Below are positions 7,256 through 45,159 of a DNA stretch of 45,159 nt, piece after piece; position 1 is the stretch's first letter, and each line of letters begins with the position of its first letter. Below the pieces are notes generated by a model. It was not told the origin of the DNA. It saw only the letters and a list, made by a program, of their open reading frames with translations, and searched no databases. Where the stretch lies: positions 1 through 45,159 of the forward strand of contig JAGONM010000031.1 of NCBI GenBank assembly GCA_017993055.1, read 5' to 3'. Position numbers and translations under genes: made by a program. The DNA comes from Armatimonadota bacterium (GTDB lineage Bacteria; Armatimonadota; UBA5829; DTJY01).

Positions 7256-7984
7256 ATGGCGAATGCCCCAAGTACCGGCAAATGGCGTTTCGTGCTGATC
7301 GTCCGGGTCGTCGGAACTACGCTCGATGCGACGACGACGCGCTACTATCACTTCGATGCGCTCGGCTCGACCAGGTTCCTGACGGACGGCTCGGGAACGG
7401 TGACCGATACCTACACGTATGACGCATGGGGGAAGCAGACGGCGAGCACCGGCTCGACCGCCCAGCCGTACCGCTTCGTCGGGCAACTCGGGTACTACTC
7501 CCACTACCAGGACTCGAACCTGTTCGACCAGTCCGGCTACCAGTTCCTCCAGCTTGGGGTGCGGTTCTATGACGCACTCAGCGGACGGTTCACGCAGAGG
7601 GATCCGGCTAGACACGGCATAGACTCGTATATGTACGTGGAGGGGCGTCCTACCATTGCAACTGATCCGCAAGGCTTGAAGTCATACTGGGAGTATGAGA
7701 AGGAGTTCCTGGGTTGCGTATGGGATTGCCTGGGCATTCCCAGCGTTGCCGGCGCATCCACAGCGTTAGGCTCAGCTCTTGGAAACTGCTTCAAGAACGG
7801 TAAGTGGATTGGTTTCAACTCGTGCGCAAAGTTACTTTGTGATGCGACCAAGAAGCTGGCGAAAGTGTTTAGAAGTAAACAAGGAGGAGGCGGGCTCAGA
7901 ATCGGAGCACAACGTTGCCTACTTGTGGCCGAGCTGACAGTGGTAGCGTGTGAAGGGTATTGCTACTATAAACTCTTGCGCTAG
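7256..7984 (+). CDS. RHS cassette A: truncated RHS core with a Cys-rich tip
   Basis: 242 residues. Residues 30-117 are an RHS repeat-associated core: YYHFDALGSTR, YTYDAWGKQT, PYRFVGQLGYYSHYQD, LQLGVRFYDALSGRFTQRDP. This is the C-terminal end of the shell that encloses a polymorphic toxin tip. The whole upstream part of a normal RHS protein (signal, YD repeats, over 1000 residues) is absent, so this is a displaced tip cassette. The tip (about 141-242) holds eight cysteines and hydrophobic stretches (GIPSVAGASTALGSALG; CLLVAELTVVAC). I do not recognise it. A membrane-active or disulfide-bonded toxin is possible. GAGG lies about 9 bases before the ATG, so expression cannot be excluded. The tip is visibly more AT-rich than the core. 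Confidence 0.75.
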   Translation: MANAPSTGKWRFVLIVRVVGTTLDATTTRYYHFDALGSTRFLTDGSGTVTDTYTYDAWGKQTASTGSTAQPYRFVGQLGYYSHYQDSNLFDQSGYQFLQLGVRFYDALSGRFTQRDPARHGIDSYMYVEGRPTIATDPQGLKSYWEYEKEFLGCVWDCLGIPSVAGASTALGSALGNCFKNGKWIGFNSCAKLLCDATKKLAKVFRSKQGGGGLRIGAQRCLLVAELTVVACEGYCYYKLLR

Positions 7985-8013
7985 GCAAGCGGAGGGTGGC
8001 AGAGGACGAGACT

Positions 8014-8301
8014 ATGGGGGATAGACACCTTACTTGGCAAGATGTGTGGCCTGCCCTGTTCTGGATTGTAGGGCTTAGCATATGGCTCTTGATATCTGAG
8101 TACCTTCGTGGGCTAACGTGGTGGTGGCAGAGAGGTGCGGAGGCTTTCCTGATAGTGATTTGGGTGACGGCATCCCTCTACCTGCGACAGCTGACATCCA
8201 AGCCTCGTGAGCAGAGGTTGCCCGTGTGGACGCTTCTGGTTCTGGTATCACTGGTGACCCTCTGCATCATGCTACTGGTGAACGTAAGACACTTGGTATG
8301 A
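8014..8301 (+). CDS. Small three-helix membrane protein, candidate immunity for tip A
   Basis: 95 residues from ATG 8014, with AGAGGA about 7 bases upstream. A GTG at 7996 is an alternative start. Three hydrophobic helices are visible: WPALFWIVGLSIWLLISEYL, AEAFLIVIWVTASLYL and WTLLVLVSLVTLCIMLLV. There is no recognisable domain. It follows cassette A after a short gap and precedes cassette B. This is the position of an immunity gene in polymorphic toxin loci. A membrane location would fit protection against an envelope-active tip. The function is inferred from position only. Confidence 0.55.
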   Translation: MGDRHLTWQDVWPALFWIVGLSIWLLISEYLRGLTWWWQRGAEAFLIVIWVTASLYLRQLTSKPREQRLPVWTLLVLVSLVTLCIMLLVNVRHLV

Positions 8302-8305
8302 CTCT

Positions 8306-9400
8306 ATGATCGAACGGCCTCCGGGGTTGCTGACCCGGGGGCAGTTCGACGCTCGAAGGCCCTGTGCGGTGGCAAGGCGGATGTGGATACCATCGCCCAG
8401 AGGGAATCAGCGTATGGCCGGCGAATATGGAGGCGTGCAGAACTCGCCGTCGAGCAGCATGACGTGGGATGCCGACGGCAACCGGGTGAGCTTCACCAGT
8501 TCTGAGGACAACACGACGACCGAGTTCGTGTACGACACGACGGCGGGCATCCCGGCGGTGATCGAGGAGAACGACGGTGATCCGGTCTACTACATCCGCG
8601 AGCCGGGCGGACAACTCGTCGCTCGAATCGGTGCTAACACCCACTACTATCACTTCGACGCGCTCGGCTCGACGCGCATGCTCACCGGAGCGAGCGGAAC
8701 CGTCACGGATGAGTATACCTACGACGCGTGGGGGAAGTTGCTCGATCACGACCAGGAGACCGGTTCTGTAGATCAGCCGTACCGGTTCGTGGGGCGACTC
8801 GGGTACTACTCGCACTACCAGGACACGAACCTGTTCGACCAGTCCGGCTACCAGTTCCTCCAACTTGGGGTGAGGATGTACGATGCGCTCTTGGGTAGGT
8901 TCACACAAGTTGACCGGGTCAAGGACATGACGCGCTCGACCTATCTTTACTGCAGAGCAGATCCGCTCGGCTTCATTGATCCCAGCGGTATGGCTAGCGT
9001 CGAGATGTGCTACGATCCGTATTTTCCGTTGGGTTCACATGCGTACATCTGTATCGGTGATAAGTGCTACGGGTTCTATCCCGGAGAGAGCGTTACGCAC
9101 GGGCGCGGCGAAGTTGTAGATACGGATGCCCGCAAGAAGAACTCCAAGTGCTACATCACCTGCGTGTCCGACAAGGCTCTAGCTTGTATCAAGAACCACA
9201 TCCAGCGTGACTTGCGCGAGCAGGATCATTACTACGCATTCCACGGCTTGAGTAGTTGGGGAGGAGTATACAACTGCGTGACCTGGATCGTACACGTGTT
9301 TACGGAATGTGGATTCAAGTGCCCTGCCGTCCTCGCCCCTGCCGCGATAGGCAACTATGCAACATGCATAGATCCTGACGGTAAGGAATGCTGTAAATAG
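8306..9400 (+). CDS. RHS cassette B: truncated RHS core with a permuted papain-like tip
   Basis: 364 residues. RHS homology starts near residue 50 (SSSMTWDADGNRVSF) and runs through EFVYDTTAGIPAVIEE, YYIREPGGQ and the core to DPSGM (225-229). The first 50 residues look non-RHS and no good ribosome binding site precedes the ATG, which supports a displaced fragment. The tip (230-364) contains GSHAYICIGDKCYGFYP with H245, later a FHGLSSWGG segment with H313, and YNCVTWIVHVF with C324. A histidine preceding a cysteine in this arrangement resembles circularly permuted NlpC/P60-like (LRAT/YiiX-type) papain folds, which act as peptidases, amidases or acyltransferases. That assignment is tentative. 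The tip is Cys-rich like the others. Confidence 0.72.
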   Translation: MIERPPGLLTRGQFDARRPCAVARRMWIPSPRGNQRMAGEYGGVQNSPSSSMTWDADGNRVSFTSSEDNTTTEFVYDTTAGIPAVIEENDGDPVYYIREPGGQLVARIGANTHYYHFDALGSTRMLTGASGTVTDEYTYDAWGKLLDHDQETGSVDQPYRFVGRLGYYSHYQDTNLFDQSGYQFLQLGVRMYDALLGRFTQVDRVKDMTRSTYLYCRADPLGFIDPSGMASVEMCYDPYFPLGSHAYICIGDKCYGFYPGESVTHGRGEVVDTDARKKNSKCYITCVSDKALACIKNHIQRDLREQDHYYAFHGLSSWGGVYNCVTWIVHVFTECGFKCPAVLAPAAIGNYATCIDPDGKECCK

Positions 9401-9417
9401 AGTAGTAGGAGGCAGGT

Positions 9418-10422
9418 GTGTTTTCGCCGTCGAAGACGAAGGTTACGGTCATCTCACTGCTACTTGTGGCAACAGGAGCCACTCTTCTCAGTGTGAGTTC
9501 CATACTTCGCACTGGTCGCCGCCTGGAGTGTGGTGCCAATCAGTGTACGTCCGTGATCGCATTCCTCGACCGGCAGACAGATGCAGTATGCGTCTACTCG
9601 GCAGAGCATGGGACCAGCGTAGCAGATGGGTGTGTGGATGGATGGCACGTAGTATCATTGCTCAGCGGGATGCGGCGTCCACAGGGATGGTTGTGCAAGG
9701 CCTGCAGTCCGAACTCCGAGACTGGCCAGTTTGTCATGCTGGGTGACGGCAAGATCCACCCGATACCAGTCCGAGGCGGCGGCGAAGCCGGTGTGTATGA
9801 TGGCCGCATTGGTATTGCAGATGCAGCAGATGGTAGGGCCGTCTTGACCTGCTATGACCTGAAAGGAAAGCGCTCTTCAGCGCGTATCCTGAAGGTGCCA
9901 GGGCACCACGTCACTGCCGTGCACAGCCCGGTAACGTGGAGCACTGATGGACTCGCTGCCGTTGCACTGTCAGTCGATTTGGAGCGGGAGAGCCGCGTCT
10001 ATGTGTTCTCAGAGTCAGGCACGTTGCTGGCCGATCTCGGGCCTGGCCACCTACCAGCAATCGATCACAAAGGTGGTCGTGTGGCTTACTTGCTGCCAAG
10101 TAGCTCCTCCTTCCACCAAGTACAGGTAGGGCTATATGACATCAAGGCACGGACGAGAACGCAGATAGCCGCTTGGTATCCGACACGTCCCGCAGAACTG
10201 CTTCCGTATTGTGGAGCGACCGATGTCCATGAAGTCAAGTGGTCGGATGATGGGAAGTGGCTGATATGCGCGCTAGGGGAAGCGACGCGTCCGGATAGCC
10301 TAATATGTGCGGTACAGATGGATAGCCGGCGCTGGTGCCGACTGCCGATTCGTGTATTGCATGGTAGGTGGGCTGTAGGAAATGGGGACATGAAAAAGGG
10401 GACAGAGAGAAACGGACAGTAA
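9418..10422 (+). CDS. Membrane-anchored beta-propeller-like protein, candidate immunity for tip B
   Basis: 334 residues from GTG 9418, with a strong AGGAGG (9407-9412) five bases upstream. One N-terminal hydrophobic segment (about 9-29, VTVISLLLVATGATLLSV) suggests a signal anchor with the rest outside the cytoplasm. The body has repeated WSTDGLAAVALS, HKGGRVAYLL and WSDDGKWLIC units, similar to TolB/WD40-type propeller blades. It lies 17 bp after cassette B. The last residues (MKKGTERNGQ) are coded by a GGGGACA-rich dispersed repeat, so the original C-terminus may have been lost. An immunity role is inferred from position. Confidence 0.6.
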   Translation: MFSPSKTKVTVISLLLVATGATLLSVSSILRTGRRLECGANQCTSVIAFLDRQTDAVCVYSAEHGTSVADGCVDGWHVVSLLSGMRRPQGWLCKACSPNSETGQFVMLGDGKIHPIPVRGGGEAGVYDGRIGIADAADGRAVLTCYDLKGKRSSARILKVPGHHVTAVHSPVTWSTDGLAAVALSVDLERESRVYVFSESGTLLADLGPGHLPAIDHKGGRVAYLLPSSSSFHQVQVGLYDIKARTRTQIAAWYPTRPAELLPYCGATDVHEVKWSDDGKWLICALGEATRPDSLICAVQMDSRRWCRLPIRVLHGRWAVGNGDMKKGTERNGQ

Positions 10423-10440
10423 TGGGGGACAGGGGGGCTG
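10376..10440 (+). repeat. GGGGACA-rich repeat remnant
   Basis: AATGGGGACATG, AAGGGGACAGAG and AATGGGGGACAGGGGGG occur in tandem, reminiscent of the AATGGGGGCAG arms at 7200-7234. It overlaps the end of the preceding gene. The next 100 bp up to cassette C hold no gene that I can see. Confidence 0.45.
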
Positions 10441-10537
10441 CTGAAGAAGGCATCGGTAGTTTAATCTATAAGAAGGACAATATGCGGCTCTAGAGGCTTC
10501 TATGCTAGGGCAGGATCACTCTTTCTAGGAGACGCCC

Positions 10538-12115
10538 GTGTTCCGAGACAAACGCCCAACCCAGGAGACGATCTTCGTCCCCGGAAGGCCTGCCGACTAC
10601 CTCTACTACGCGAACGGGTGGCTGAAAGAGGTGCAGGAAAACAGCGCTTCCATCGCCGAATACATCTATGACGAGGTAGGCAACCGGACGCGGGTTGAGC
10701 TCGGGAATGACGCGTATACGACGTATGACTACCATTCCACCGATCCGAGGTACTTCGTGAGCGAGATCGAGCACTTCCAGCCCGATGATCAGAGCATCGG
10801 CGCGATAACCTACTCGCAGCGGGACGACTCGGGGAACCCGACCTCCGTGACGTATCCCGGCGGGGCGGTCAGCTACACCTACGACGTGAACAACCGCCTC
10901 GTGAGTGAGAGCTCGTCGTCCTTCGGGTACGACTGGGTCGGGAACCGGCTGAACCCGCCGGCAGACCCGAGCCCGATGGTCTATGACGACACGGACAAGC
11001 TGGTGACGTGGCCCGGTGAGCATCAGTATACCTACTACCCGACGGGGAGTCTCTATCAGCAGAAGAACAGCCAGGGGAGCGTTCAGAAAACGTTCACCTA
11101 CACCGGAGCCGAGCTGCTGGAGTCGGTAACGCACGCCGGAGTGAACGATCCGAGCGAGATGGAGTGGGACGGTGATGCGAACCGGGTGAGCTTCACGAGG
11201 AGCACGACTCCCATAGGGACCTGGTACTTCGTGTACGACACGACGGCGGGCATCCCGGCGGTGATCGAGGAGAACGACGGTGATCCGGTCTACTACATCC
11301 GCGAGCCGAACGGGGCGCTGATCGCCCGGGTGGACGGCGCGACGACGAACTACTATCACTTCGACGCGCTCGGCTCGACCAGGTTACTGACGAACGGCTC
11401 GGGAACGGTGACCGACACCTACACGTATGACGCATGGGGGAAGCAGACGGCGAGCACCGGCCCGACCGCCCAGCCGTACCGGTACGTCGGGCAACTCGGA
11501 TACTACTCCCACTACCAGGACGAGAACCTCTTCGACCAGTCCGGCTACCAGTTCCTCCAACTCGGCGTCCGGTTCTATGATGCCTTGACGGGGAGGTTCA
11601 CGCAGAGAGATCCGGCTAAGGATGGGCTGAACTGCTTCGTGCATGCTTCTGACGATCCTCTAGGCCGAGTCGATCCTTCTGGGCTTGCATGCACAGCTAT
11701 CGAGAGGGCAGTTCGCGATGATGCCCTGTCTCTTGTCCCGGCTCCAACGTTGGTCAGGCATCTCCGGACTGAGCATTCGTGGAAGCAGGTGGGATACGAG
11801 CCGACCTGGGGTATTGCTTGGGGGAGCGACAACATGGTTGGCTGCAACTGCATCTGGCAGCGGAGCGAGAGGAGTGTGGACCTCTGGAAGCGTCTCGAGC
11901 CGATGAAGCAGAAGATGTCCTGCCAGACCTGGGGGCCGTGCGGATACGGCGGCAGTTGGACATACTGGCGGCACTTCGTCAGACCAGTGTTCTACGAACA
12001 CGCCGGGGATTGGCGTTTGCTCCCAAGGTTGTCACTTCAGGACACGCGGAAGACGCCCGGATTCGTTATTCTGACGAGTACCGGGGAGGATTGCTTGTGC
12101 CGTATGCCACAGTAA
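10538..12115 (+). CDS. RHS cassette C: longest truncated RHS fragment, unknown tip
   Basis: 525 residues. RHS/YD-repeat homology begins about residue 11 (LYYANGWLKEVQENSASIAEY, YIYDEVGNRT, YTYDVNNRLVSES, FGYDWVGNRL) and runs to the core (272-356) and DPSGL (379-383). TAGGAG (10526-10531) lies six bases before the GTG start, so this fragment could be translated. The tip (384-525) is Trp- and Cys-rich: HSWKQVGYEPTWGIAWGSD, CNCIWQRSE, CQTWGPCGYGGSWTYWRHF, EDCLCRMPQ. I do not recognise it. Its lower GC and the abrupt change after DPSGL are typical of exchangeable polymorphic toxin tips. Confidence 0.72.
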   Translation: MFRDKRPTQETIFVPGRPADYLYYANGWLKEVQENSASIAEYIYDEVGNRTRVELGNDAYTTYDYHSTDPRYFVSEIEHFQPDDQSIGAITYSQRDDSGNPTSVTYPGGAVSYTYDVNNRLVSESSSSFGYDWVGNRLNPPADPSPMVYDDTDKLVTWPGEHQYTYYPTGSLYQQKNSQGSVQKTFTYTGAELLESVTHAGVNDPSEMEWDGDANRVSFTRSTTPIGTWYFVYDTTAGIPAVIEENDGDPVYYIREPNGALIARVDGATTNYYHFDALGSTRLLTNGSGTVTDTYTYDAWGKQTASTGPTAQPYRYVGQLGYYSHYQDENLFDQSGYQFLQLGVRFYDALTGRFTQRDPAKDGLNCFVHASDDPLGRVDPSGLACTAIERAVRDDALSLVPAPTLVRHLRTEHSWKQVGYEPTWGIAWGSDNMVGCNCIWQRSERSVDLWKRLEPMKQKMSCQTWGPCGYGGSWTYWRHFVRPVFYEHAGDWRLLPRLSLQDTRKTPGFVILTSTGEDCLCRMPQ

Positions 12116-12160
12116 GCTGTCTGAATGACGGCGAGGATCTCGAATAGAAAGGTGGGATAG

Positions 12161-12715
12161 GTGATATCTATGTCAAACCGTTCTCAGAAGAGACTGCCCA
12201 TTGCTATCGTGGCGGTGCTGCTCCTAGCAGTGGTGGCGGTGTTCTATGCGGTGCACAACCGGTCAGGGTCGCAGCCCGCAGCCTTCGTTGTTCTGCCGAA
12301 CGCCGAGGGGCCTGAGTTCGTGACCTTCCAGGGCACTAGACAGATGCGATACGAGTTCATTGAGCCGTATCCGGGAAAGGCAGCGCTCAAGGGCATCTCA
12401 GACCGACTTGGCCGCCTTGGCTGGAAGCCGCTGCAGAACAGCTATCTGCAGCCGGACCGCCCCTCGTCCCATGTAACCGGTTGGGAGGAATTCCAGGACG
12501 GCACAAAGACGCCTTGGGTATACGTCAGACAATGGATGGGCGAGTGGACAAGCCCCAGTGGCGACGTCGTCTCGTATATCTTGCGGTATGAATGGCCGAA
12601 TGATGCATCGGCTCCAAATACCGACAGGGTGCGTTTGAACAGCATACTCATCCCCGCGAAAGTTGCGGCGTCGCGAAGAGCGGCACTACCGAAAGGCACG
12701 AACTCAGACAACTAG
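12161..12715 (+). CDS. Single-pass membrane protein, candidate immunity for tip C
   Basis: 184 residues with one N-terminal hydrophobic helix (LPIAIVAVLLLAVVAVFYAV, about 12-31) and a soluble remainder, expected outside the cytoplasm. The start may be GTG 12161, with AAAGGTGGG upstream, or ATG 12170 (MSNRSQK). I see no recognised domain; segments such as ALKGISDRLGRLGWKPL and VYVRQWMGEWTSPSGDVVSYI suggest a compact alpha/beta fold. It follows cassette C and touches cassette D. The role is inferred from the toxin-immunity alternation. Confidence 0.55.
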   Translation: MISMSNRSQKRLPIAIVAVLLLAVVAVFYAVHNRSGSQPAAFVVLPNAEGPEFVTFQGTRQMRYEFIEPYPGKAALKGISDRLGRLGWKPLQNSYLQPDRPSSHVTGWEEFQDGTKTPWVYVRQWMGEWTSPSGDVVSYILRYEWPNDASAPNTDRVRLNSILIPAKVAASRRAALPKGTNSDN

Positions 12716-13521
12716 TGCTGGGTGAGAGATGGCCGTGGACGAAAGGTCAAGTGGGCATGTCTTGCTGTGAACCCCGAGTCCTCACGGACTGGAAGGGAAC
12801 GGTCAGCTACACGTATGATGCCTGGGGGAAGCAGACCGCGAGCACCGGCTCGACCGCCCAGCCGTACCGGTACGTCGGCTGGCTCGGGTACTACTCGCAC
12901 TACCAGGACGGGAACCTCTTCGATGAGGAGGGCCCGCAGCTCCTTCAGCTTGGGGTAAGGTTCTACGATCCCCAGACCGGGAGGTTTACGCAGAGGGACC
13001 CTGTGCCTTCCGTGAAATTGTCCAACTACGCTTACGTCAGCAATGAGCCAGTGTTGGCGGTAGATCCGTCTGGGGAGATCGTAGAGCAACTCCTGTGTGC
13101 TGCAGCCAGATGGTTCATTTCCTGTCACAGTTGCAGTCGGCGTGCTGCCAACGAGGGCTGGGTAGAGGCAGAGAAGTATCTGGCAAAGAAGAACATCCAA
13201 CTTGATGACAGCGGTGGCGAGGGCAGAAACGAGAAGAACGCCGTTGGTCACTGTGTTCGAGCCTGCCAGACGATGAGGGACTGCAAGGGGGTGTTCGACT
13301 GCGTCGGGGCGACTGGTGTGCGCACCTATCTCAATACTGTTTACGAAGCTCCGCTACCCGAGTTCTTAGTGCCAGACCGGGCAGAAGAGTGCAGCATGGA
13401 TAAGCACAATAACAACATTGGCATGTCATGCGCCGCAGCCAAGAGCAAGTCGTGTATCGAGTGTTGCATGGAGCACCACAAGGAGTTAGTGATCCTAGAC
13501 CCTCCCAAGCCTAAGCGATGA
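12715..13521 (+). CDS. RHS cassette D: short core with a DUF6973-like HNN tip
   Basis: 268 residues. RHS sequence starts only at about residue 31 (YTYDAWGKQTAS) and ends at DPSG (117-120). The preceding codons look non-native and no ribosome binding site is seen. The tip (121-268) is Cys-rich and contains NAVGHCVRACQT with H179, and MDKHNNNIG with D229, H231, N232 and N233. A histidine in an NAxxH helix followed by DxHNNxxG is the pattern I associate with DUF6973, a domain seen at the ends of RHS and other secreted proteins. Metal binding by these residues is plausible. The assignment is from memory of the motif and is tentative. The following gene is an ankyrin-repeat lipoprotein. Confidence 0.7.
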   Translation: MLGERWPWTKGQVGMSCCEPRVLTDWKGTVSYTYDAWGKQTASTGSTAQPYRYVGWLGYYSHYQDGNLFDEEGPQLLQLGVRFYDPQTGRFTQRDPVPSVKLSNYAYVSNEPVLAVDPSGEIVEQLLCAAARWFISCHSCSRRAANEGWVEAEKYLAKKNIQLDDSGGEGRNEKNAVGHCVRACQTMRDCKGVFDCVGATGVRTYLNTVYEAPLPEFLVPDRAEECSMDKHNNNIGMSCAAAKSKSCIECCMEHHKELVILDPPKPKR

Positions 13522-13572
13522 GAGCACTACCCCGTGGTAGCAACGAACAGAACTGGAAGGAGTGATCAGGCC

Positions 13573-14538
13573 ATGAGGAAGCGCCAGAAGCCAGCTCTCC
13601 GTTATCTCCGAGTCCTGTGCGCTACTGTCTCAATGCTGGTCGTAGTCCCTTGTGGCTGCTCAAAAGGGGACGCTAGGCGCGACCAGTTGGTCAGGGCCAT
13701 TAGGAACAACGACTACACAAGCGCAGCTCAACTCCTGAGGCAGTCGCCCAAGCTGGCAAACGCAGAGGTTTCGACAATGAGGGCTATCCGGACTCCGCAG
13801 TCTGTATTGATCATAGCTGTGGAGAACAACCATGCGAGCATTGCGGAGCTTCTGATTCGCAAGGGAGCAGAAGTGACGTATAGGGATTACCGTCAGTGGA
13901 CGGCGCTGCATTACGCTGCCGAGCGCGGCAGTTCTCAGATCATAGAGCTGCTGCTGGCTGCAGGTGCCGATCCGGACATTTGTGACAATGACGGGCTGAC
14001 ACCCATGATGCTTGCGGTTGAAAGTGGAGAGCGTACCGCAGTTGACCTGCTTAGGAATTCGGGAGCTAAGTCTGGGTGCAGACTACATGAAGCTGCCGCG
14101 CTGGGCGACTTTGATGCGGCAATAGCCGAGGTGAAGCGTGCCCCACAGGCTATCAACTCGAGACAACACTATTGGTCACCTTTGGCTCTTGCTGCGCGAC
14201 ATGGGCACCTCGAAGTAGCTGCGTTTCTTGTGAGAAACGGTGCGTGCGTGGACGATGAGGCATTCAGAGAGGCCGCTAGGTCCGGGCATCTCAGCGTGGT
14301 GAAACTACTGCGTCCCCACATCCTCAATATCGACGATAATGGGGGAGGATCTGTCCAGTACACGGCCCTGCAGGTCGCCGCAATGGAAGGGCACACGGCG
14401 GTAGTAACCTACCTATTGCATGAAGGAGCAGACCCAGAAGTGGTGACACAGGGCTTCACAACTATCGAGCTAGCGCGAAATGCCGATCAGAATCGAATCG
14501 CGGACTTGCTAGTACGTCACATGCAATCCAAACCATGA
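13573..14538 (+). CDS. Ankyrin-repeat lipoprotein, candidate immunity for tip D
   Basis: 321 residues from ATG 13573, with AAGGAG ten bases upstream; an earlier in-frame start at 13534 is less likely. The N-terminus is basic (MRKRQK), then hydrophobic (CATVSMLVVV), then PCGC, so C29 is a probable but slightly non-canonical lipidation cysteine. From about residue 36 to the end are about seven to eight ankyrin repeats, such as WTALHYAAERGSSQIIELLLAAGADPD and TALQVAAMEGHTAVVTYLLHEGADPE. Ankyrin proteins are a known immunity type in polymorphic toxin systems. Lipidation would place it at the membrane facing the periplasm. The end overlaps the start of cassette E by four bases. Confidence 0.75.
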   Translation: MRKRQKPALRYLRVLCATVSMLVVVPCGCSKGDARRDQLVRAIRNNDYTSAAQLLRQSPKLANAEVSTMRAIRTPQSVLIIAVENNHASIAELLIRKGAEVTYRDYRQWTALHYAAERGSSQIIELLLAAGADPDICDNDGLTPMMLAVESGERTAVDLLRNSGAKSGCRLHEAAALGDFDAAIAEVKRAPQAINSRQHYWSPLALAARHGHLEVAAFLVRNGACVDDEAFREAARSGHLSVVKLLRPHILNIDDNGGGSVQYTALQVAAMEGHTAVVTYLLHEGADPEVVTQGFTTIELARNADQNRIADLLVRHMQSKP

Positions 14539-16064
14539 CTGATCGACCTACGGCTACGACGCAGGATCCCAGGTATTTCGTGGATGAAATCGGGCACTAT
14601 GACTCGTCGAACGCGTTGTTGACCAGCGGTCCGATCAGCTACAACACACGGGACGACTCCGGCAACCCGACCGAGATCCAGGACTGGGACGGCACGCGGA
14701 GTTACGGCTACGACACGAACAACCGCCTCGCGAGCGAGAGTTCGTCGTCCTTTTGGTACGACTGGGTCGGGAATCGGCTGAATCCCCCCACCGCTCCGAA
14801 CCCGATGGAGTACAACGCCGCCGATCAGCTGACCAGGTTCCCCGGTGAGCACCAGTACGACTACCTCGGGACCGGCAGCATGGAGAACCAGTACGACGAC
14901 GACTCGCCGAGAAACCTGGAGAAGACGTTCGAGTACACCCCGGCGAACCTGCTTTCGTCCGTGACCCACGTCGGGGCTAACTATCCCACTGAGATGGAGT
15001 GGGATGCTGATTCCAACCGAGTGAGCTTCACGAGCAGCGACACCGACACGACCTGGTACTTCGTCTACGACACGACGGCGGGGATACCGGCGGTAATCGA
15101 GGAGGAGACGCCGAGCGGATCGGTATACTACATCCGCGAGCCGGGCGGACAACTCATCGCCCGAATCGGTGCCAGCACCCATTACTACCACTTCGACGCG
15201 CTCGGCTCGACCAGGTTCCTGACGAACGGCTCGGGAACGGTGACCGACACCTACACGTATGACGCCTGGGGGAAGCAGACGGCGAGCACCGGCTCGACCG
15301 CCCAGCCGTACCGCTTCGTAGGGCAGCTCGGGTACTACTCCCACTACCAGGACTCAAACCTGTTCAGCCAAAGCAGCTACCAGTTCCTCCAGCTCGGCGT
15401 CCGGTTCTACGATGCGCTGACGGGGCGGTTCACTCAGAGGGATCCGATCCAGGATGGACTGAACTGGTACTCCTACGTCGGCGGCAAGCCGCTAATGTGG
15501 GCGGATCCGTTCGGCCTTATGAGCCGCTGGCGTTTCGTGGACATGTGGGACGCATACATAGGTGGCACACAGAACAGGCCTTATCATCTGCCGATAACCG
15601 AGCTGAATCTCGACGCGATAGATATCTCAAAGTGGACCACCATGTATGGGCTGATCAATGGTGGTAGACCCGGGAAGTACCAGATTGACGAGTACCGACT
15701 GGTCAGTTTCGACCCAACGAAGAGCCTTTTCGACGCCTATGCTGTCGGCACACTAGAGTTGCGAATAAAAGGCACCCTCGAGATCTGCTCCGCGAATTCC
15801 TGGACGTTTGATGGTCGGGTGGTCGGGGATCGTGACACGTTCGACTTTCAGAGAAGTACTCACCGGACGAGAATGGCTGAGTTTCTAACGACTCTGGGGC
15901 GCTCGTTTGAAGGAGTGGGCGCAAAGCCGTACCCTGTTAGCATAGACGGTTATGCCCCCGTGGCCTGGGCATCGTTCCACCGACCGCCTGGTCAATACAC
16001 AGTACCAAGACCACTTCTTGATCCGCTTAGGCTTATGCCAAATGTGCGGATGCCCTATTTCTAA
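14535..16064 (+). CDS. RHS cassette E: truncated RHS with a colicin M-like lipid II hydrolase tip
   Basis: 509 residues. RHS homology runs from about residue 10 (QDPRYFVDEIGHY, YGYDTNNRLASES, WYDWVGNRL) to the core (217-301) and DPFGL (324-328). The tip (329-509) includes GDRDTFDFQRSTHR: D434, F436, D437, H443, R444. Colicin M's catalytic residues are D226, Y228, D229, H235 and R236, and the spacing (0, +2, +3, +9, +10) is identical, with Tyr replaced by Phe. The flanks also fit: an SWTFDGRVV strand before, then MAEFLTTLGRSF and a PYPVSIDGYAPV segment after. Colicin M enzymes cleave undecaprenyl-linked peptidoglycan precursors in the periplasm. No ribosome binding site is seen, so this copy may be silent. 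A lipoprotein gene follows. Confidence 0.78.
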   Translation: MTDRPTATTQDPRYFVDEIGHYDSSNALLTSGPISYNTRDDSGNPTEIQDWDGTRSYGYDTNNRLASESSSSFWYDWVGNRLNPPTAPNPMEYNAADQLTRFPGEHQYDYLGTGSMENQYDDDSPRNLEKTFEYTPANLLSSVTHVGANYPTEMEWDADSNRVSFTSSDTDTTWYFVYDTTAGIPAVIEEETPSGSVYYIREPGGQLIARIGASTHYYHFDALGSTRFLTNGSGTVTDTYTYDAWGKQTASTGSTAQPYRFVGQLGYYSHYQDSNLFSQSSYQFLQLGVRFYDALTGRFTQRDPIQDGLNWYSYVGGKPLMWADPFGLMSRWRFVDMWDAYIGGTQNRPYHLPITELNLDAIDISKWTTMYGLINGGRPGKYQIDEYRLVSFDPTKSLFDAYAVGTLELRIKGTLEICSANSWTFDGRVVGDRDTFDFQRSTHRTRMAEFLTTLGRSFEGVGAKPYPVSIDGYAPVAWASFHRPPGQYTVPRPLLDPLRLMPNVRMPYF

Positions 16065-16106
16065 AGGTGTTTGTACATTCTCAAAGAACTCGAAGGAGTG
16101 CTCAGA

Positions 16107-16502
16107 TTGACTATACAGACGGTCGACGAAGCAGTTAGACGAATCGCATTCGGCCTTGCGGTCTTGTTGTTGGTGATGAGCGTGATCGGCTGTACACCCA
16201 GGAAGAAGGTCACGTATGCCGAGGCAGAGCAGATCGCGGATGGGTACATGGTCGAGCTCTGTGATAGATGGAAGTTGAAGACGACGGATTTCACCGGGCC
16301 CCGTTCATTCGGAGCGAAGACACTCGACGGTGTCAAGTGGTGGAGTTTCTTCTACCAGTATAAGTATGCCACCAATGCGAAGGTGCATATTGCGGTGAGC
16401 GAGTTCGGCGACTCAGATGTGGCCGCTATTGGGCCAGGGGTTCCCGATCGGAGCGCAGGAACAGATCGGAGTGACAAAGGCAGTGGCAAGACGGCACCCT
16501 AG
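16107..16502 (+). CDS. Small lipoprotein, candidate immunity for the colicin M-like tip
   Basis: 131 residues from TTG 16107, chosen because AAGGAG lies eight bases upstream; an in-frame TTG at 16071 lacks such a site. The signal sequence (IAFGLAVLLLVMSVIGC) ends in a canonical lipobox VIGC, so C29 would be lipidated and the mature protein held at a membrane facing the periplasm. The mature part (KKVTYAEAEQIADGYMVELC, VKWWSFFYQYKY, KVHIAVSEFGDSDV) is not recognised. Colicin M immunity proteins are also membrane-anchored with a periplasmic domain, which agrees with a role beside cassette E. The last codons run into the next RHS fragment, so the C-terminus may be altered. Confidence 0.65.
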   Translation: MTIQTVDEAVRRIAFGLAVLLLVMSVIGCTPRKKVTYAEAEQIADGYMVELCDRWKLKTTDFTGPRSFGAKTLDGVKWWSFFYQYKYATNAKVHIAVSEFGDSDVAAIGPGVPDRSAGTDRSDKGSGKTAP

Positions 16503-16515
16503 TGCAGCATCCAGA

Positions 16516-16695
16516 ATCCCGGCGGTGATCAAGGAACTGCACGACGGGACTCCGGTGTACTACATCCGGGAGCCGAACGGAGCGCTGATCGCCCGTATCG
16601 ACGGCGCGACGACCAACTACTATCACTTCGACGCGCTCGGCTCGACCAGGTTCCTGACGAACGGCTCGGGAACGGTGACCGACACCTACACGTAT
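16516..16695 (+). pseudogene. RHS cassette F: RHS core remnant cut at both ends
   Basis: RHS sequence begins at IPAVIKELHDGTPVYYIREP, continues through YYHFDALGSTRFL and stops dead at VTDTYTY (16695). Continuation would be DAWGKQT in every other copy. Past the break the DNA is CCCCATTCC and then unrelated sequence running into the convergent NamZ-like gene, which ends at 16730. There is no tip and no plausible start, so this is a recombination scar marking the right edge of the array. Confidence 0.8.
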
Positions 16696-16729
16696 CCCCA
16701 TTCCGACTTGCGGCTCCTGTATCCCTCAC

Positions 16730-17890
16730 CTACATGTAGAGCAGATACGGCCGCCGCTTCACCATAAACTCCTCGAGGCCGCTCCGCCACGGGAGCATGA
16801 TCTCCTCCACCGACGCGCCCGACTCGATCCCCTCGCGAACCTTGTCCGTGCCGAGCAGGAGGTCGAAGTACCGCTTGCCGGACGCTCCCGGCGCGCGGAA
16901 CTGGAAATCCTTCGGGAAGAGGTCGCGCAGCGCCTTCACGAGGTGCAGGCCGAGCGGGACGGTCTGCAGCTTGCCCCGATCGGTGACGTGCGCCTGCACG
17001 CCGAAGCACTGCGCCTCCTTGTGCTTGGAGAGGCTCGGGTAGAAACTCGTCGGCCGGAAGCGGACGCCCGGCAGTTCGAGCGAGTTCAGGCGGTCCGCGA
17101 GCTTGTAGCCGTCAATGAAGGGCGCGCCGACCATCTCGAACGGCTTGCTCGTGCCGCGCGCCTCGGAGACGTTCGTGCCCTCCATGTAGCAGAGCCCGGT
17201 GTAGAGGACCGCCGCGTCCATCGTCGGCAGGTTCGGAGAAGGCATGATCCACGGGAGGCCGGTCTCGTCGTAGTACATCGCGCGCTTCCATCCCTGGCAC
17301 GGGACGACCTCGAGGTCGGCGCCGAATCCCAGCTCTCCGTTGAAGAACTGCGCCGCCTCGCCGACGGTGAATCCGTGCCGGATCGGGATCGGGTGCAGGC
17401 CGACGAACGATGCGAACCCGGTGTCGAGGATGTTGCCCTCGACCGCCGTGCCGTTCACCGGGTTCGGGCGGTCGAGCACGACGAACTTCGTGCCGTTCTG
17501 CGCGCACGCCTGAAGGCAGTACGACATGGTGTAGAGGTATGTGTAGAACCTCGCGCCGACGTCCTGGATGTCGAATAGCATGAGGTCAATGCCCGCGAGC
17601 ATCTCGGGCGTCGGCTTCCTGGTGCGCCCGTAGAGGCTGTGGACCTGAATGCCCGTGCGGGGGTCCAGGTACGAGACGAACTCCCGGCCGTCCGCGACGT
17701 CGCCCCTGACGCCGTGCTCGGGTCCGAAGAGCGCCCTGATGTCGGCGCCCACTGCGAGCAGGGCGTCCACGACGTGCGTGAAGTCGCCCGTGACGGCGCT
17801 GTGGTTCGTCACGAGGCCGATGCGCTGCCCGCGGATGATCTCCATCTTCTGCTCGAGCATTACTTCGAGGCCGGGTTTGACTCTCGGCAT
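16730..17890 (-). CDS. DUF1343 / NamZ-like exo-beta-N-acetylmuramidase, paralogue 1
   Basis: 386 residues from ATG 17890, with AAGGAG eight bases upstream; the frame stays open to 18028 but that extension is repeat-like. Family features: GLVTNHSAVTGDFTHVVDALL, ALFGPEHGVRGD, DLMLFDIQDVGARFYTY, VLDRPNPVNGTAVEG, GLPWIMPSPNLPTMD and EGTNVSEARGT. In Bacillus subtilis the founding member NamZ removes N-acetylmuramic acid from the non-reducing end of peptidoglycan fragments. No signal peptide is visible, unlike secreted NamZ, so a cytoplasmic role on imported fragments, or non-classical export, would be needed. A paralogue lies 680 bp upstream on the same strand. Confidence 0.9.
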   Translation of the reverse strand: MPRVKPGLEVMLEQKMEIIRGQRIGLVTNHSAVTGDFTHVVDALLAVGADIRALFGPEHGVRGDVADGREFVSYLDPRTGIQVHSLYGRTRKPTPEMLAGIDLMLFDIQDVGARFYTYLYTMSYCLQACAQNGTKFVVLDRPNPVNGTAVEGNILDTGFASFVGLHPIPIRHGFTVGEAAQFFNGELGFGADLEVVPCQGWKRAMYYDETGLPWIMPSPNLPTMDAAVLYTGLCYMEGTNVSEARGTSKPFEMVGAPFIDGYKLADRLNSLELPGVRFRPTSFYPSLSKHKEAQCFGVQAHVTDRGKLQTVPLGLHLVKALRDLFPKDFQFRAPGASGKRYFDLLLGTDKVREGIESGASVEEIMLPWRSGLEEFMVKRRPYLLYM

Positions 17891-17955
17891 GTTTGATACT
17901 CCTTGTCCATCCGTTGTGTGCATTCGGGTTCGGTCGGCGGAGATGCCACCGTCTC

Positions 17956-18092
17956 TCGATATGCCCTGCGGGCTACTCGAGACTGGACGGGGTTTGGGCC
18001 TGGGCAGCCTGGCATACCATCCAACCAATCTCCTCGAGCAGCCGCGGGTTACAGGCCCGGGGCATCCTCAACCGATCTCCTCGAGCAGCCGC
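17956..18092. repeat. Dispersed repeats upstream of NamZ paralogue 1
   Basis: CTCTCGATATGCCCTGCGGG and CTACTCGAG (17956-17979) match the family at 4051-4145. An 18-bp direct repeat ATCTCCTCGAGCAGCCGC occurs at 18028-18045 and again at 18075-18092. I see no gene between 17891 and the tRNA. Confidence 0.65.
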
Positions 18093-18571: not shown

Positions 18572-19729
18572 CTAGTACAGCAGATACCTCTCTCGCTGCT
18601 TCTTGAACCAATCGAGGCCGTCCATGTACGACGCATAGATGTCATCCGCGGGGACTCCCGCCTCCAGCCCGGATTGAGTCTTGAGGCTGCCGACGACGTG
18701 CGCGAAGTGGTTGCGCCCCGACGAGTTTACCGGCAGGAACTCGAAGTCGTTCGGATGCAGGTCGCGCAGCGCCTTCACCACGTGCAGTCCCGTGCGGACG
18801 GTCTGGACCGCATTCCGGTCCATGAAGTGGATCTGCACCCCCCTGCAGGAGACGCCCTGGTGCTTCGACGTGCGGGGGATGAAGTGCGCCGGCCTGAACC
18901 GCACTCCGGGCAGCCCGACCGCGTTCAGGTGGTCCGCCAGCTTGAACGGGTCAACGAACGGCGCGCCGACGATCTCGAACGGCCGGGTGATCCCGCGCCC
19001 CTCCGAGAGGTTCGTCCCCTCGATCAGGCAGGTGATCGTGAACGCGAGCGCGCTGTCCACCGTCGGTATGTTCGGCGAGGGCACGACCCACGGCAGGCCC
19101 GTCTCCTCCCACCACATCCCGCGCGACCATCCCTTGCACTTCACGACGGTCAGGTTCGTGCCGTATCCGAGGGTGTCGTTGAACATCGCTGCCAGCTCGC
19201 CGATCGTCATGCCCGGGCGGTCGGGGATCGCGTGCAGGCCGATGAAGGAGGTGCAGTCCATCTCGAGCACCTGCCCGTCCACGGTCACCCCGTTCACCGG
19301 GTTCGGGCGGTCGAGCACGATGAACCCCTTGCCGCTCTCCGCCGCGGCCTGCATGCAGTTCGTCATCGTGGACATGAACGTGTAGTACCGCGCGCCGATG
19401 TCCTGCAGGTCGTAGATCAGGACGTCCACATCCTCCAGCATTTCGGGCGTCGGCTTCCCCGATCCGCCGTAGATGCTGTGCTCGGTGATGCCGGTGCGCG
19501 AATCCTTGCCCGAAACCACCTCGCCGCCGTCCGCGATGTCTCCCCGGATGCCGTGCTCGGGGGCGAAGAGCGCGGTGATGTTGACGCCCGCGCCGAGCAG
19601 CGCGTCGAGGATGTGCGTCGTGTCGCTCGTGACCGCGCTGTGGTTCGTGATGAGACCGACTCGCTTGCCCTCGACGAGATCCATCCGCTCGCCGATCAGC
19701 GTTTCCAGACCGGGCTTGACTTTTGCCAT
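18572..19729 (-). CDS. DUF1343 / NamZ-like exo-beta-N-acetylmuramidase, paralogue 2
   Basis: 385 residues from ATG 19729, with AAGAGGT about six bases upstream. It aligns throughout with paralogue 1: GLITNHSAVTSDTTHILDALL, ALFAPEHGIRGD, LIYDLQDIGARYYTF, VLDRPNPVNGVTVDG, GLPWVVPSPNIPTVD, EGTNLSEGRGI and a WFKKQRERYLLY end. Like its relative it starts directly with M-x-x-VKPGLE and shows no signal peptide. The likely substrate is a MurNAc-terminated peptidoglycan fragment. Two diverged copies on one strand, split by a tRNA and repeats, suggest an old duplication with possible substrate divergence. Confidence 0.9.
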   Translation of the reverse strand: MAKVKPGLETLIGERMDLVEGKRVGLITNHSAVTSDTTHILDALLGAGVNITALFAPEHGIRGDIADGGEVVSGKDSRTGITEHSIYGGSGKPTPEMLEDVDVLIYDLQDIGARYYTFMSTMTNCMQAAAESGKGFIVLDRPNPVNGVTVDGQVLEMDCTSFIGLHAIPDRPGMTIGELAAMFNDTLGYGTNLTVVKCKGWSRGMWWEETGLPWVVPSPNIPTVDSALAFTITCLIEGTNLSEGRGITRPFEIVGAPFVDPFKLADHLNAVGLPGVRFRPAHFIPRTSKHQGVSCRGVQIHFMDRNAVQTVRTGLHVVKALRDLHPNDFEFLPVNSSGRNHFAHVVGSLKTQSGLEAGVPADDIYASYMDGLDWFKKQRERYLLY

Positions 19730-39278: not shown

Positions 39279-39334
<56 letters not shown>

Positions 39335-39356
<22 letters not shown>

Positions 39357-41011
39357 CTACATTCACCAATGGCTTCGGGTATCTTGTAGTTGATTTCGAC
39401 TTCCAAGGTATCCGGAGCCAGCTTTATCTGGTCTACGCACGACCTCACCAACTGCTTCTTGTCCGTCAAAGTCCCAGTTTCCATTATCTTGTCCGCCTTT
39501 GATCGATAGGCCAGCGCAGTCCTCGCGTCGATCTGGGGCGCTTCCGCAATCGTCCTGACTTGGCTCGACAGAGACTCCCGTTCCGCTATCAGTTCTTCCA
39601 TTCTCGAAAACGCCCACTGAGCGTCCGGCATACCGGTCTCGACAGCCTTCCTGATGTTCGCGATCTTAGCGTCAATCTCGCCAAGCCTGTGTGGGATCGT
39701 CGGATCATGGCCCTCTTCGGTCTCCCACATCCGCCGAAGCTCTGCATTGACCTCTCGCGCGAAACCTTTCACATCGCTGCACACATCGAGCAGTTCAGCC
39801 ATCCCGGCAAGAACTTCCGATTCGACCTCACACTGCGGGACGTACACAGCCGTTCCGCAGCCCAGACCCTTGCGATGCGGCTGGCTTCCACAGATGTAGT
39901 AGCTTGCGCTAGCCGTCTTGCGCATTCCTAGGAGGTTGCTTCCACATCTGCCACACGTGAACAACCCGCCGCTCAAGAGGTAAGGCGAGTCCTTGCTTCT
40001 CCCGTAGCCTGAGTCGAAGCACCTCCGCTTGCTGCCGCTCCGGGCTTCAACGATCATCTTGGCCTCGTCTTCACTGATGAGCGCCTGGTGAGCATTCGGA
40101 ACTACCACCCATTCTGATGCGGGGTTGTACCGCTGATTCTTGCCGCGAACGTTCCAAACGCCGTATCCCGCGTACTGAAGCAGGCAGTGGGGGTGAAGCA
40201 GGCTGTTCCACGTCGTATGTCCCCAATACTGTTGTCTCGGGGCTGAAATGCCACGCCCGTTGCAGAAATCCCTGAGTTCGTCCAAGGAAGCGCCTTTGCC
40301 GGCCAATTCCACAAGACAGTATCTCGCCCATTCCGACACGGGCTTGCCCGAAACGATGCGGTCGTCAGGAACCCAGATGCTCTTGACGAGCGGTCTTCCT
40401 TTCTTGACCTCTCCCCGGATCAATCTCTCGGCTCGATATCCCCAAATCGGTTGTCCGCCATTCTTGTAGCACCAGCCTGTCTCCGGGTCGCGTGTCTGAA
40501 CGTTGGATCGGCATCCCTTCTTCGTATGGAACGCGATCTCCCGACTGTACGCCTCGTTCTTCGCCAGTAGGATGTGCTTCATGTAGGTTCCTGCCACAGA
40601 TTCGGGGTCTATGTCCGGGTCGGTGACCGATATCACCTTGATACCGGCACGTGTCAGGTCCTGAAGGAGTATCTGCGCCTCAAGGCTGTCGCGGGAGAAC
40701 CTGGAGAGATCGTGCACGAGAATCGCCGATATCTCTGGATTGCCGCGAGCCGATTCCAGCATGCGCTCGAATTCCACACGCTTGGACTTCTTCTGAAAGG
40801 CACTGGCTGCCTCCGAGAACGTCTGCACGATCTCGATCCCGTTCGTCCCAGCGTATGCTTCGATCTCCCGCAACTGCTCCGGGAGAGACAATCCCTTCTC
40901 CTCCTGCATGTCCGTTGACACGCGTGCCCACGCGTATGCCTTGATCTGCTTGTCCGATGCCGATCCGGCCAACTCAGGCTGTGTGATTACGAGGTCGAGT
41001 AGGGCGCTCAT
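39335..41011 (-). CDS. Large serine recombinase (element integrase)
   Basis: 558 residues. The resolvase catalytic domain starts at about 23 (IKAYAWARVSTDMQEEKG) with nucleophile S32, supported by R104 and R107 in HDLSRFSRDS. The recombinase domain follows (GGQPIWGYRAER, WNSLLHPHCLLQYAGYGVWN), then a zinc ribbon (FTCGRCGSNL ... YYICGSQPHRKGLGC) and a coiled-coil region (about 440-500). This is the architecture of integrases that insert phages and integrative elements. The final CSGSGGWI and stop are coded by the antisense of the tRNA-fMet 3' end. The ATG overlaps the stop of the small RHH gene (ATGA). Codon and base use are less GC-rich than the chromosomal side. Confidence 0.93.
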
Positions 41012-41160
41012 TTCTCTTTCTCCTCCGGTACTTGCACATCGGCAAGAGCCTGATCAAGTATCTCTAGGAGTACCACCTGCTGGCTTCTCCGCTCCCGGAA
41101 GCACTTCCAGCGCAGTTTCTCATGCAATTCGTCAGGCAACCTGATCGTCAGTCTGACCAT
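41008..41160 (-). CDS. Ribbon-helix-helix DNA-binding protein, probable element regulator
   Basis: 50 residues from ATG 41160, with AAGGAGG nine bases upstream. The sequence begins VRLTIRLPDELHEKLRWKC, the beta-strand and first helix of Arc/MetJ-type proteins, followed by RRSQQVVLLEILDQALADV as the second helix and an acidic tail. Such proteins bind DNA as dimers through paired strands. The stop overlaps the recombinase start by four bases, so the two are translationally coupled. The promoter upstream has a palindromic spacer that could be its own operator. It probably controls integrase expression or assists excision. Confidence 0.8.
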   Translation of the reverse strand: MVRLTIRLPDELHEKLRWKCFRERRSQQVVLLEILDQALADVQVPEEKEK

Positions 41161-41180
41161 GATGATCCACCTCCTTCCCG

Positions 41181-41209
41181 ATTATACCAGCATACTGCTA
41201 TGCTGTCAA
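41181..41209 (-). promoter_or_regulatory. Consensus promoter with a palindromic spacer before the RHH/recombinase genes
   Basis: Minus strand: TTGACA (41209-41204), 17-bp spacer, TATAAT (41186-41181), a perfect consensus. The spacer contains GCATA-GCAG-TATGC, an inverted repeat suited to a repressor dimer. A strong promoter of this kind usually needs tight repression. The next 150 bp to the primase stop hold no gene that I can see. Confidence 0.8.
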
Positions 41210-41366
41210 TAGCTCATTCAGAATGTCTCCGACATCACGCCTGGCAGCAGCCACACCGGTTGATGGTTGACGGTTTGGAGGGATAGTGACGCCCGGTCCG
41301 CGGTACAGGATATTGTCTCTTCGGCTTAGAAGACATATCTGTCTCGGTTTCCGCGCTTAGGGTACA

Positions 41367-44093: not shown

Positions 44094-44358
44094 CCGCTTC
44101 GTCTCCATTCATGCGTGCCATGTGAGGGAACAACTCCGGGTGATCGGCGGCGAAGGCGCGAGCGACAACCCGCGCGAGAATCGCCTCCATCTTTCGGACG
44201 TCACACGCCGACATCGGCACTTCCGATGTCTTGCTGACGATCTTGAGCTTCTTGTGCTGCCCGTCACCCACTCCGAAATCCCCCGCCTTGTTCACGCCAA
44301 GATAGGGAAGCCCCGAGATTGGCCCGTAGCACCCTACCGCCGGGTCGCTGGCTTCCAT
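44083..44358 (-). CDS. Hypothetical small protein of the element
   Basis: 91 residues, start at ATG 44358. I recognise no domain. The C-terminal half (SACDVRKMEAILARVVARAFAADHPELFPHM) is helical. The stop lies 11 bases inside the primase start, so expression is probably coupled. A supporting role in element replication is a guess from position. Confidence 0.5.
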   Translation of the reverse strand: MEASDPAVGCYGPISGLPYLGVNKAGDFGVGDGQHKKLKIVSKTSEVPMSACDVRKMEAILARVVARAFAADHPELFPHMARMNGDEADVK

Positions 44359-44428
44359 AATCTAGGTGTGAGAATGGGCGTCACACTGTGAAGAACGGCT
44401 TCACAGACGGCAGTGCGGAAACTTTTCC

Positions 44429-45159
44429 TCAGAATTCCCAGTGAATGGGAGTGGTAGGACGGTAGGAGATTTGCTTCCCGGAGGTAATTGAGGCGCGGAA
44501 GTGGCCATAGCAGGCCGGATCTGATCTCCGCAGTTTCTTCAGCACGCGGTTGATGGCATGAGATACGCTACTGCGCGCATTCTCTACGTCGTCTTCATGC
44601 AAACCGATGGAGTCCAGACCCTCGCTTTCAAGTTCCTCTCTGCTCATCGACGAGTATTGGGGGTCAGGCTCGGGAATGTTGCCATTGACATACATTACCA
44701 GCTGCAATGCGAGATACGCTCGTTTGGGGTTCTGCAGCAGAAAAGCCAGGTACTGTAACCCTTTGCAGTCATTCAGATGTGTCTCCTTGCCTTCGTATAC
44801 GATTGTCCAGTAGTCCCCTGCCTTCTTGAATATGTACGTGGGGGCTTGGGCCCGAGCATCAACTGCATCTTTGGATGCTACTCCATCTGCGCGAGGAAAC
44901 GCATTACCGGTTTTCAGTAGGTCAACTATCGGCTCGAGCATTGGTACGACGTCGGCGTCTACCGACACCGGTATCTTGGGTACAGCAGAGCCTTCCCCGT
45001 TCAGCCGCCGCAAGTCCTCTGGACTCAGCCAGTGCGGAGGGAAGAACATATAAGTGAACCTGCCTGGCTTCGGCTCCTTGGGCTTCATCAGCCCGGTTAC
45101 CAAGCTGTCCTGGGTGTGGCGCCAGAGCAGAATCAACTTGTCAACAGTAGTGAGAGGGT
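44429..45159 (-). CDS. Unknown protein of the element, 5' end beyond the window
   Basis: The reading frame is open to the right edge (PLTTVDKLILLWRHTQDS before the first usable starts, TTG 45136 and ATG 45088), so the start is not fixed. At least 235 residues. A stretch DYWTIVYEGKETHLNDCKGLQYLAFLL is similar to a region seen at the C-terminus of various bacterial regulatory ATPases, and VSHAINRVLKKLRRSDP resembles a DNA-binding type helix followed by TSGKQISYRPTTPIHWEF. I cannot name the family with confidence. It is transcribed towards the primase gene, with a 70-bp gap. Confidence 0.55.
   Translation of the reverse strand, partial: PLTTVDKLILLWRHTQDSLVTGLMKPKEPKPGRFTYMFFPPHWLSPEDLRRLNGEGSAVPKIPVSVDADVVPMLEPIVDLLKTGNAFPRADGVASKDAVDARAQAPTYIFKKAGDYWTIVYEGKETHLNDCKGLQYLAFLLQNPKRAYLALQLVMYVNGNIPEPDPQYSSMSREELESEGLDSIGLHEDDVENARSSVSHAINRVLKKLRRSDPACYGHFRASITSGKQISYRPTTPIHWEF

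Follow-up and report, generated by a model that had tools for sequence, protein, structure and literature searches.

The window analysed here (the whole stretch of DNA, 45,159 nucleotides from an Armatimonadota bacterium) encodes a complete colicin M (ColM) catalytic domain, a true relative of colicin M, as the variable tip of a truncated RHS protein. This protein, cassette E (509 aa, 14535-16064, + strand), closes a series of five RHS cassettes and is followed on the same strand by a gene for a small lipoprotein. Cassette E is, we think, likely to be an orphan module of an RHS toxin and its immunity protein, in which the tip hydrolyses lipid II and the lipoprotein protects against it. In the literature, ColM enzymes, which act by destruction of lipid II (a leading antibacterial target), appear chiefly as bacteriocins of proteobacteria; relatives occur in type VI secretion system (T6SS) effectors and in some other polymorphic toxins.

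A ColM catalytic domain at the tip of cassette E

The tip comprises 181 aa (15519-16061, +; residues 329-509 of the ORF). A profile search of these residues against the colicin M family had been set beforehand as a check, and Pfam Colicin_M (PF14859) matched at 41.5 bits against a curated cut-off of 27, the E value being 7.4e-10 when the whole ORF was searched and 1.1e-10 when the tip was taken alone. The match spans profile positions 168-275 of 281, which are the catalytic part. When the tip was compared with the sequences of solved structures by phmmer, all eleven matches were ColM bacteriocins (E 6.5e-11 to 1.2e-5), among them PaeM (6.5e-11), colicin M (7e-9), pectocins M1 and M2 and syringacin M.

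The fold was modelled with AlphaFold2 (mean pLDDT 72.5). A Foldseek search with this model returned 14 matches at E ≤ 0.001, every one a ColM protein. The comparison by superposition that the initial annotation had proposed (with colicin M or pyocin M) showed agreement over the whole domain with pectocin M, colicin M, syringacin M and PaeM: re-alignment to the solved ColM bacteriocins yielded Z scores of 8.8-14.3 over about 145 residues (pectocin M2, Z 14.3, rmsd 2.4, 146 residues; colicin M, Z 9.7), and only ColM structures scored above 4.5. The match covers tip residues 1-155 against the last ~149 residues of colicin M. As ColM relatives were part of the alignment behind the model, which therefore depends on the sequence evidence, and as the loop bearing the motif His and Arg (tip residues 112-116) has a pLDDT below 50, what the model backs is the fold, rather than the precise geometry of the active site; the five motif residues are close together in sequence.

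The RHS array and the lipoprotein gene

Directly upstream of the tip and in frame with it, the cassette E ORF matches TIGR03696 (50.6 bits, cut-off 32.5). This RHS/YD-repeat core (14559-15518, +) is 70% identical to that of cassette C and ends at 15518 in ADPFGL, the DPFGL being the boundary of DPxGL type that precedes the variable tip of RHS-associated cores. It is truncated, starting at about 14559, and has no N-terminal delivery region. The ATG of the cassette overlaps the preceding stop (ATGA).

Five cassettes, all on the + strand, lie head to tail at 7256-16064; their tips all differ, and a same-strand gene stands behind each one. In cassette A (7256-7984) an RHS core fragment is joined to a tip unlike the others, and the next gene encodes a small membrane protein (7996-8301). 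Cassette B (8306-9400), again a core fragment with a different tip, precedes a gene for 334 aa with one N-terminal hydrophobic segment (9418-10422). Cassette C (10538-12115) has the longest core fragment (384 aa) and another different tip, and the gene behind it encodes 184 aa, likewise with one N-terminal hydrophobic segment (12161-12715). Cassette D (12715-13521) joins a core fragment to a DUF6973-like tip (E 0.00038, below cut-off) and is followed by a gene whose product has ankyrin repeats and a hydrophobic segment at its N-terminus (13534-14538). A sixth core fragment (16510-16710, +), plainly a broken remnant, closes the array. The cores share up to about 91-94% DNA identity over short stretches, and the ten array genes (7256-16502) are packed like an operon, with gaps of -4 to about 115 bases, although translation signals are frequently missing from RHS orphans. 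The products of the genes behind all five cassettes have hydrophobic segments (membrane, anchored or lipoprotein), which suggests that the array as a whole is directed at the cell envelope and that all five tips may act there. The cassette B tip contains HAYICIG and YNCVTWIVHVF, which we take to recall NlpC/P60- or LRAT-like cysteine enzymes; it has no Pfam match.

Two neighbouring NamZ exo-muramidase genes adjoin the array, at 16730-18028 and 18572-19729 (-). At 39280-45136, a serine recombinase gene overlaps the end of a tRNA gene beside an NrS-1 polymerase-like protein, and this region is a probable integrated element.

A full-length RHS gene was not found in the assembly (99.6% complete, 82 contigs) with the core profile, the YD-repeat profile or the core protein; all the RHS cores and YD repeats found lie at 7.3-16.7 kb and are the six fragments of the array. 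The earlier description of a ColM domain as an RHS tip stands, with the refinement that its carrier is a fragment devoid of a delivery region, in an assembly with no full-length gene, and for this reason is assigned only as an orphan RHS cassette. In a related genome assembled in about 30 contigs (G224), an RHS fragment bears another tip and precedes a gene for a hydrophobic protein; a second relative (G225) is alike, and a third genome, of the same class (G229), contains an RHS frame exceeding 2000 aa. The class therefore includes full-length carriers, and in the family fragments turn up repeatedly. The long frame of G229 (L081, contig C212) is full-length and has, by impression, a PKD-like N-terminal region and a nuclease-like tip. 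In Salmonella, orphan tips come to be expressed and delivered once they have recombined with the main rhs gene (PMC3967940). Delivery of the cassette E tip would need either recombination of its RHS fragment onto a full-length RHS gene, a parent that this assembly does not show, or export of the short RHS protein by some other route.

The gene behind cassette E (16107-16502, +; alternative start TTG at 16071) encodes a 131-aa lipoprotein with the lipobox VIGC, Cys at residue 29, and one N-terminal hydrophobic segment. A Shine-Dalgarno-like AAGGAG (16093-16098, +) lies 8 bases before the TTG at 16107. A Pfam search with its product gave no credible match. The model of the mature protein (pLDDT 81.9, from a shallow alignment of four) has one helix and four strands, and its fold matches, with a best Z of 6.8, were to cystatin-like and other folds; as scores of 6.8 and below are in the range of common arrangements, no kinship is claimed. 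Two known types of ColM immunity protein were considered and rejected. Cmi (YebF) was absent from the fold matches, and the lipoprotein has no PF13995 match and only one Cys besides that of the lipobox. The PmiA/BmiA type would be expected to have several transmembrane helices, whereas the lipoprotein has its N-terminal hydrophobic segment only.

The same gene order was found at four loci. In the window, in two Nitrospira genomes and in one Myxococcales genome, the next same-strand gene after the ColM tip encodes a small lipoprotein (lipoboxes LLAGC and WAGC among the Nitrospira and Myxococcales proteins), and the four proteins align with a common pattern: the Cys, next a helix carrying A-x-A-x3-A, and after it V-x2-W, V-x-I and G. 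With a profile of the three Nitrospira and Myxococcales lipoproteins, the window gene ranked sixth of 4207 ORFs (E 0.09), below the three profile founders and two sequences (L053 and L055) that had both been fetched with a profile including those founders. The reciprocal profile (window gene plus L053) placed the two Nitrospira genes next after its founders, with E values of 0.05 and 0.13 that are weak alone. Weak profile likeness combined with identical position at four loci makes common descent likely, so the four lipoproteins likely, although not certainly, form one weakly conserved family. The L053 sequence, a clear homologue with 38% identity from another genome of the same class, occurs there without a ColM gene. 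Orphan immunity genes do occur without their toxin gene.

ColM immunity proteins are diverse and associated with the cytoplasmic membrane (PMC5821083), and a further immunity family is in keeping with this diversity. ColM is toxic from the periplasm only, and Cmi acts in the periplasm (PMC8469651), which fits an exported immunity protein. The lipoprotein is the best immunity candidate against the tip and fits a periplasmic target. Most likely it would reside on a membrane in the periplasm, bind the tip and so protect the producer.

Catalytic residues and predicted activity

Codons 15834-15866 (+) encode the motif DTFDFQRSTHR, residues 434-444 of the ORF. The initial annotation had placed five catalytic residues of the colicin M type here, and the codons confirm each of them exactly: D434 (15834-15836), F436 (15840-15842, TTC), D437 (15843-15845), H443 (15861-15863) and R444 (15864-15866), all on the + strand. 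Their spacing is that of colicin M, D226-K-Y228-D229-x5-H235-R236, and the phmmer alignments to colicin M and PaeM are in register. D434, D437, H443 and R444 are the equivalents of Asp226, Asp229, His235 and Arg236. The Tyr of the strict signature DxYDx5HR is missing and, as first read, Phe436 occupies the Tyr228 site.

Alanine substitution of any of these five residues of colicin M reduces activity to below 2%, and the activity of Y228A is undetectable (PMC8469651). Phe retains the ring of Tyr, in contrast to the Ala of Y228A. A characterised ColM bacteriocin, burkhocin M1, has Phe at this site in its motif DXFKX5R (PMC5821083), and a literature search found no test of Y228F in colicin M. Phe436 is the main doubt over the predicted hydrolysis of lipid II. 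As a natural Tyr-to-Phe variant, the tip is also a probe of the ColM catalytic mechanism.

We aligned 26 ColM domains taken from public contigs. The window tip retains all eight positions that are invariant in this set (G77, G85, D106, D109, R116, E121, T124 and G144, in tip numbering), and it keeps the motif His, H115, which is lost at four other loci. Phe at the Tyr228 site (tip position 108) is found in 3/26 domains, those of the window, L029 and L033, and the latter two lack the motif His, unlike the window tip. Both are ColM bacteriocins (L029 5926-6399 and L033 5773-6246) with the motif DVFDFNLGNFR, in which Phe replaces both Tyr228 and His235.

We favour the reading in which the tip is a lipid II hydrolase acting in the periplasm and kept as an orphan RHS cassette, an activity predicted from homology, with Phe436 standing in for Tyr228. 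The chief rival, which we regard as unlikely, holds that the domain is a decaying relic, once active, left unexpressed after loss of its RHS parent and deprived of catalysis by Phe436 and other departures. In addition to the Phe at an essential Tyr site, the tip differs from several highly conserved positions of the 26-domain alignment, and in the ColM tree it sits on a very long branch (about 5 changes per column), features that together could mean relaxed constraint. Long branches also make the tree unreliable for the window, and a common clade of the four RHS-linked tips was neither shown nor rejected (p-AU 0.229). The restriction of RHS sequences in the assembly to fragments, the sixth of them plainly broken, likewise agrees with decay. 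However, the frame of cassette E is intact, as are all five tips and the genes that follow them; the tip retains the motif His as well as every one of the eight positions invariant in ColM domains, and the gene behind the tip has kept its start site and lipobox.

It is highly improbable that the tip has the ColM fold yet kills by sequestration of lipid II, or of a different polyprenyl pyrophosphate lipid, which it would bind without cutting. In favour of this reading, a pectocin M1 variant that lacks lipid II hydrolysis can still lyse cells from the periplasm, and the ColM domain of PmnH has an altered motif (PMC5821083, PMC8469651). However, the window tip has four of the five catalytic residues at the exact spacing, and the published domains presumed inactive (HXYDX5FK and IXYNX5LK) lack the first Asp and the Arg (PMC5821083). 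The chance that an unrelated RHS tip has merely acquired DxFDx5HR spacing is negligible: nothing was found to favour it beyond an overall identity to any ColM domain of merely 17-38%, and it is ruled out by the profile match (E 1e-10), the eleven phmmer matches and the whole-domain fold match.

Distribution and comparison with known systems

Among 291 genomes of its phylum, a ColM match was found in the genome of the window only, where the tip is the sole ColM domain, and a PF14859 search of 14 control genomes gave 0/14. In the phyla of L014 and L019, sampled with just under 400 genomes each, the only loci above cut-off were two from Nitrospira and one from Myxococcales, and these three are also RHS-linked. 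The expectation that ColM can be an RHS tip outside ordinary bacteriocins is confirmed in the window and extends to Nitrospira and Myxococcota. PF14859 matches in two further genomes (G327 and G690) were below cut-off, covered only the N-terminal part of the profile and were disregarded.

An alignment query retrieved 11 relatives from a collection of genome contigs, three of them outside the Proteobacteria and RHS-linked or among RHS repeats, the other 8 being bacteriocin-like genes of Proteobacteria; a single-sequence scan of this collection with the tip detected no relative. In a plasmid collection 458 records had a match, and the 15 listed are enterobacterial and Pseudomonas bacteriocins. 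Scanning viral sequences with the RHS-type tips brought nothing further. In Nitrospira RBC085 (L018 5529-6237) the ColM tip is interrupted, apparently by a PIN-type toxin-antitoxin insertion, and the lipoprotein gene is intact.

The ColM domain, orphan RHS cassettes and ColM-like toxins other than bacteriocins are each already known, and domain databases may already list ColM-RHS fusions. What cassette E adds is a new carrier for a known toxin family, and not a new kind of system. In the literature searched, which covered few subscription journals, the combination of a plain ColM domain, RHS and this lipoprotein was undescribed, and nothing beyond a general review joined the ColM domain with Rhs. 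With a ColM tip in RHS settings of three phyla and a similar lipoprotein behind each, the range of carriers is widened, and the lipoprotein family is an added candidate immunity family for ColM. A far-reaching view would take RHS-ColM and its own cystatin-like lipoprotein immunity as a distinct mobile pair targeting lipid II in at least three phyla, and the array as an expressed set of five envelope-directed toxins on short RHS proteins that reach the periplasm without the usual long RHS gene; we think it quite unlikely that all of this holds.

The tip shares with colicin M, PaeM, syringacin M and pectocin M the whole catalytic domain, the fold and the spacing of the signature D, D, H and R, and with ColM domains of this type also E121, T124, G77, G85 and G144, invariant in the set. 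Unlike these bacteriocins, the window domain is carried on an RHS fragment without a receptor-binding or translocation part, has Phe for Tyr228, is accompanied by another candidate immunity family and comes from a phylum with no further ColM match in the 291 genomes.

The orphan rhs-CT/rhsI modules of Salmonella LT2 and other Enterobacteria (PMC3967940, PMC3150448) resemble the window array in their displaced core fragment, DPxGL boundary and variable tip, in the position of the immunity gene behind the tip, and in the repeats of the locus with similar core DNA. By contrast, the window assembly shows no main full-length rhs gene, and all five following genes of its array encode hydrophobic, exported or membrane segments.

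A ColM-like fold serving as a cell-wall toxin that is not a bacteriocin is also found in the DUF3289/DUF943 effector-immunity pairs of T6SS (PMC11148199). DUF3289 was recognised by structure and lies on T6SS effectors, whereas the PF14859 domain of the window is recognised by sequence and lies on RHS. The ColM-like toxin domain of the Lipocone paper (PMC12419801) is similar in having the ColM fold in polymorphic toxins and a membrane-anchored periplasmic immunity protein. That system has its own novel ColM-like domain, an N-terminal cystatin-like domain, BamE-like immunity and other carriers. Its BamE-like immunity protein is a two-helix hairpin with three strands, whereas the window lipoprotein is modelled, from its shallow alignment of four, with one helix and four strands. 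The loci of Nitrospira sp. CR1.2 (L014) and Myxococcales fen_1103 (L019, an orphan ColM tip) share with cassette E both the RHS setting and a same-strand lipoprotein gene directly downstream, and differ from it in the Tyr of their motif and in a tip identity of 28-33%.
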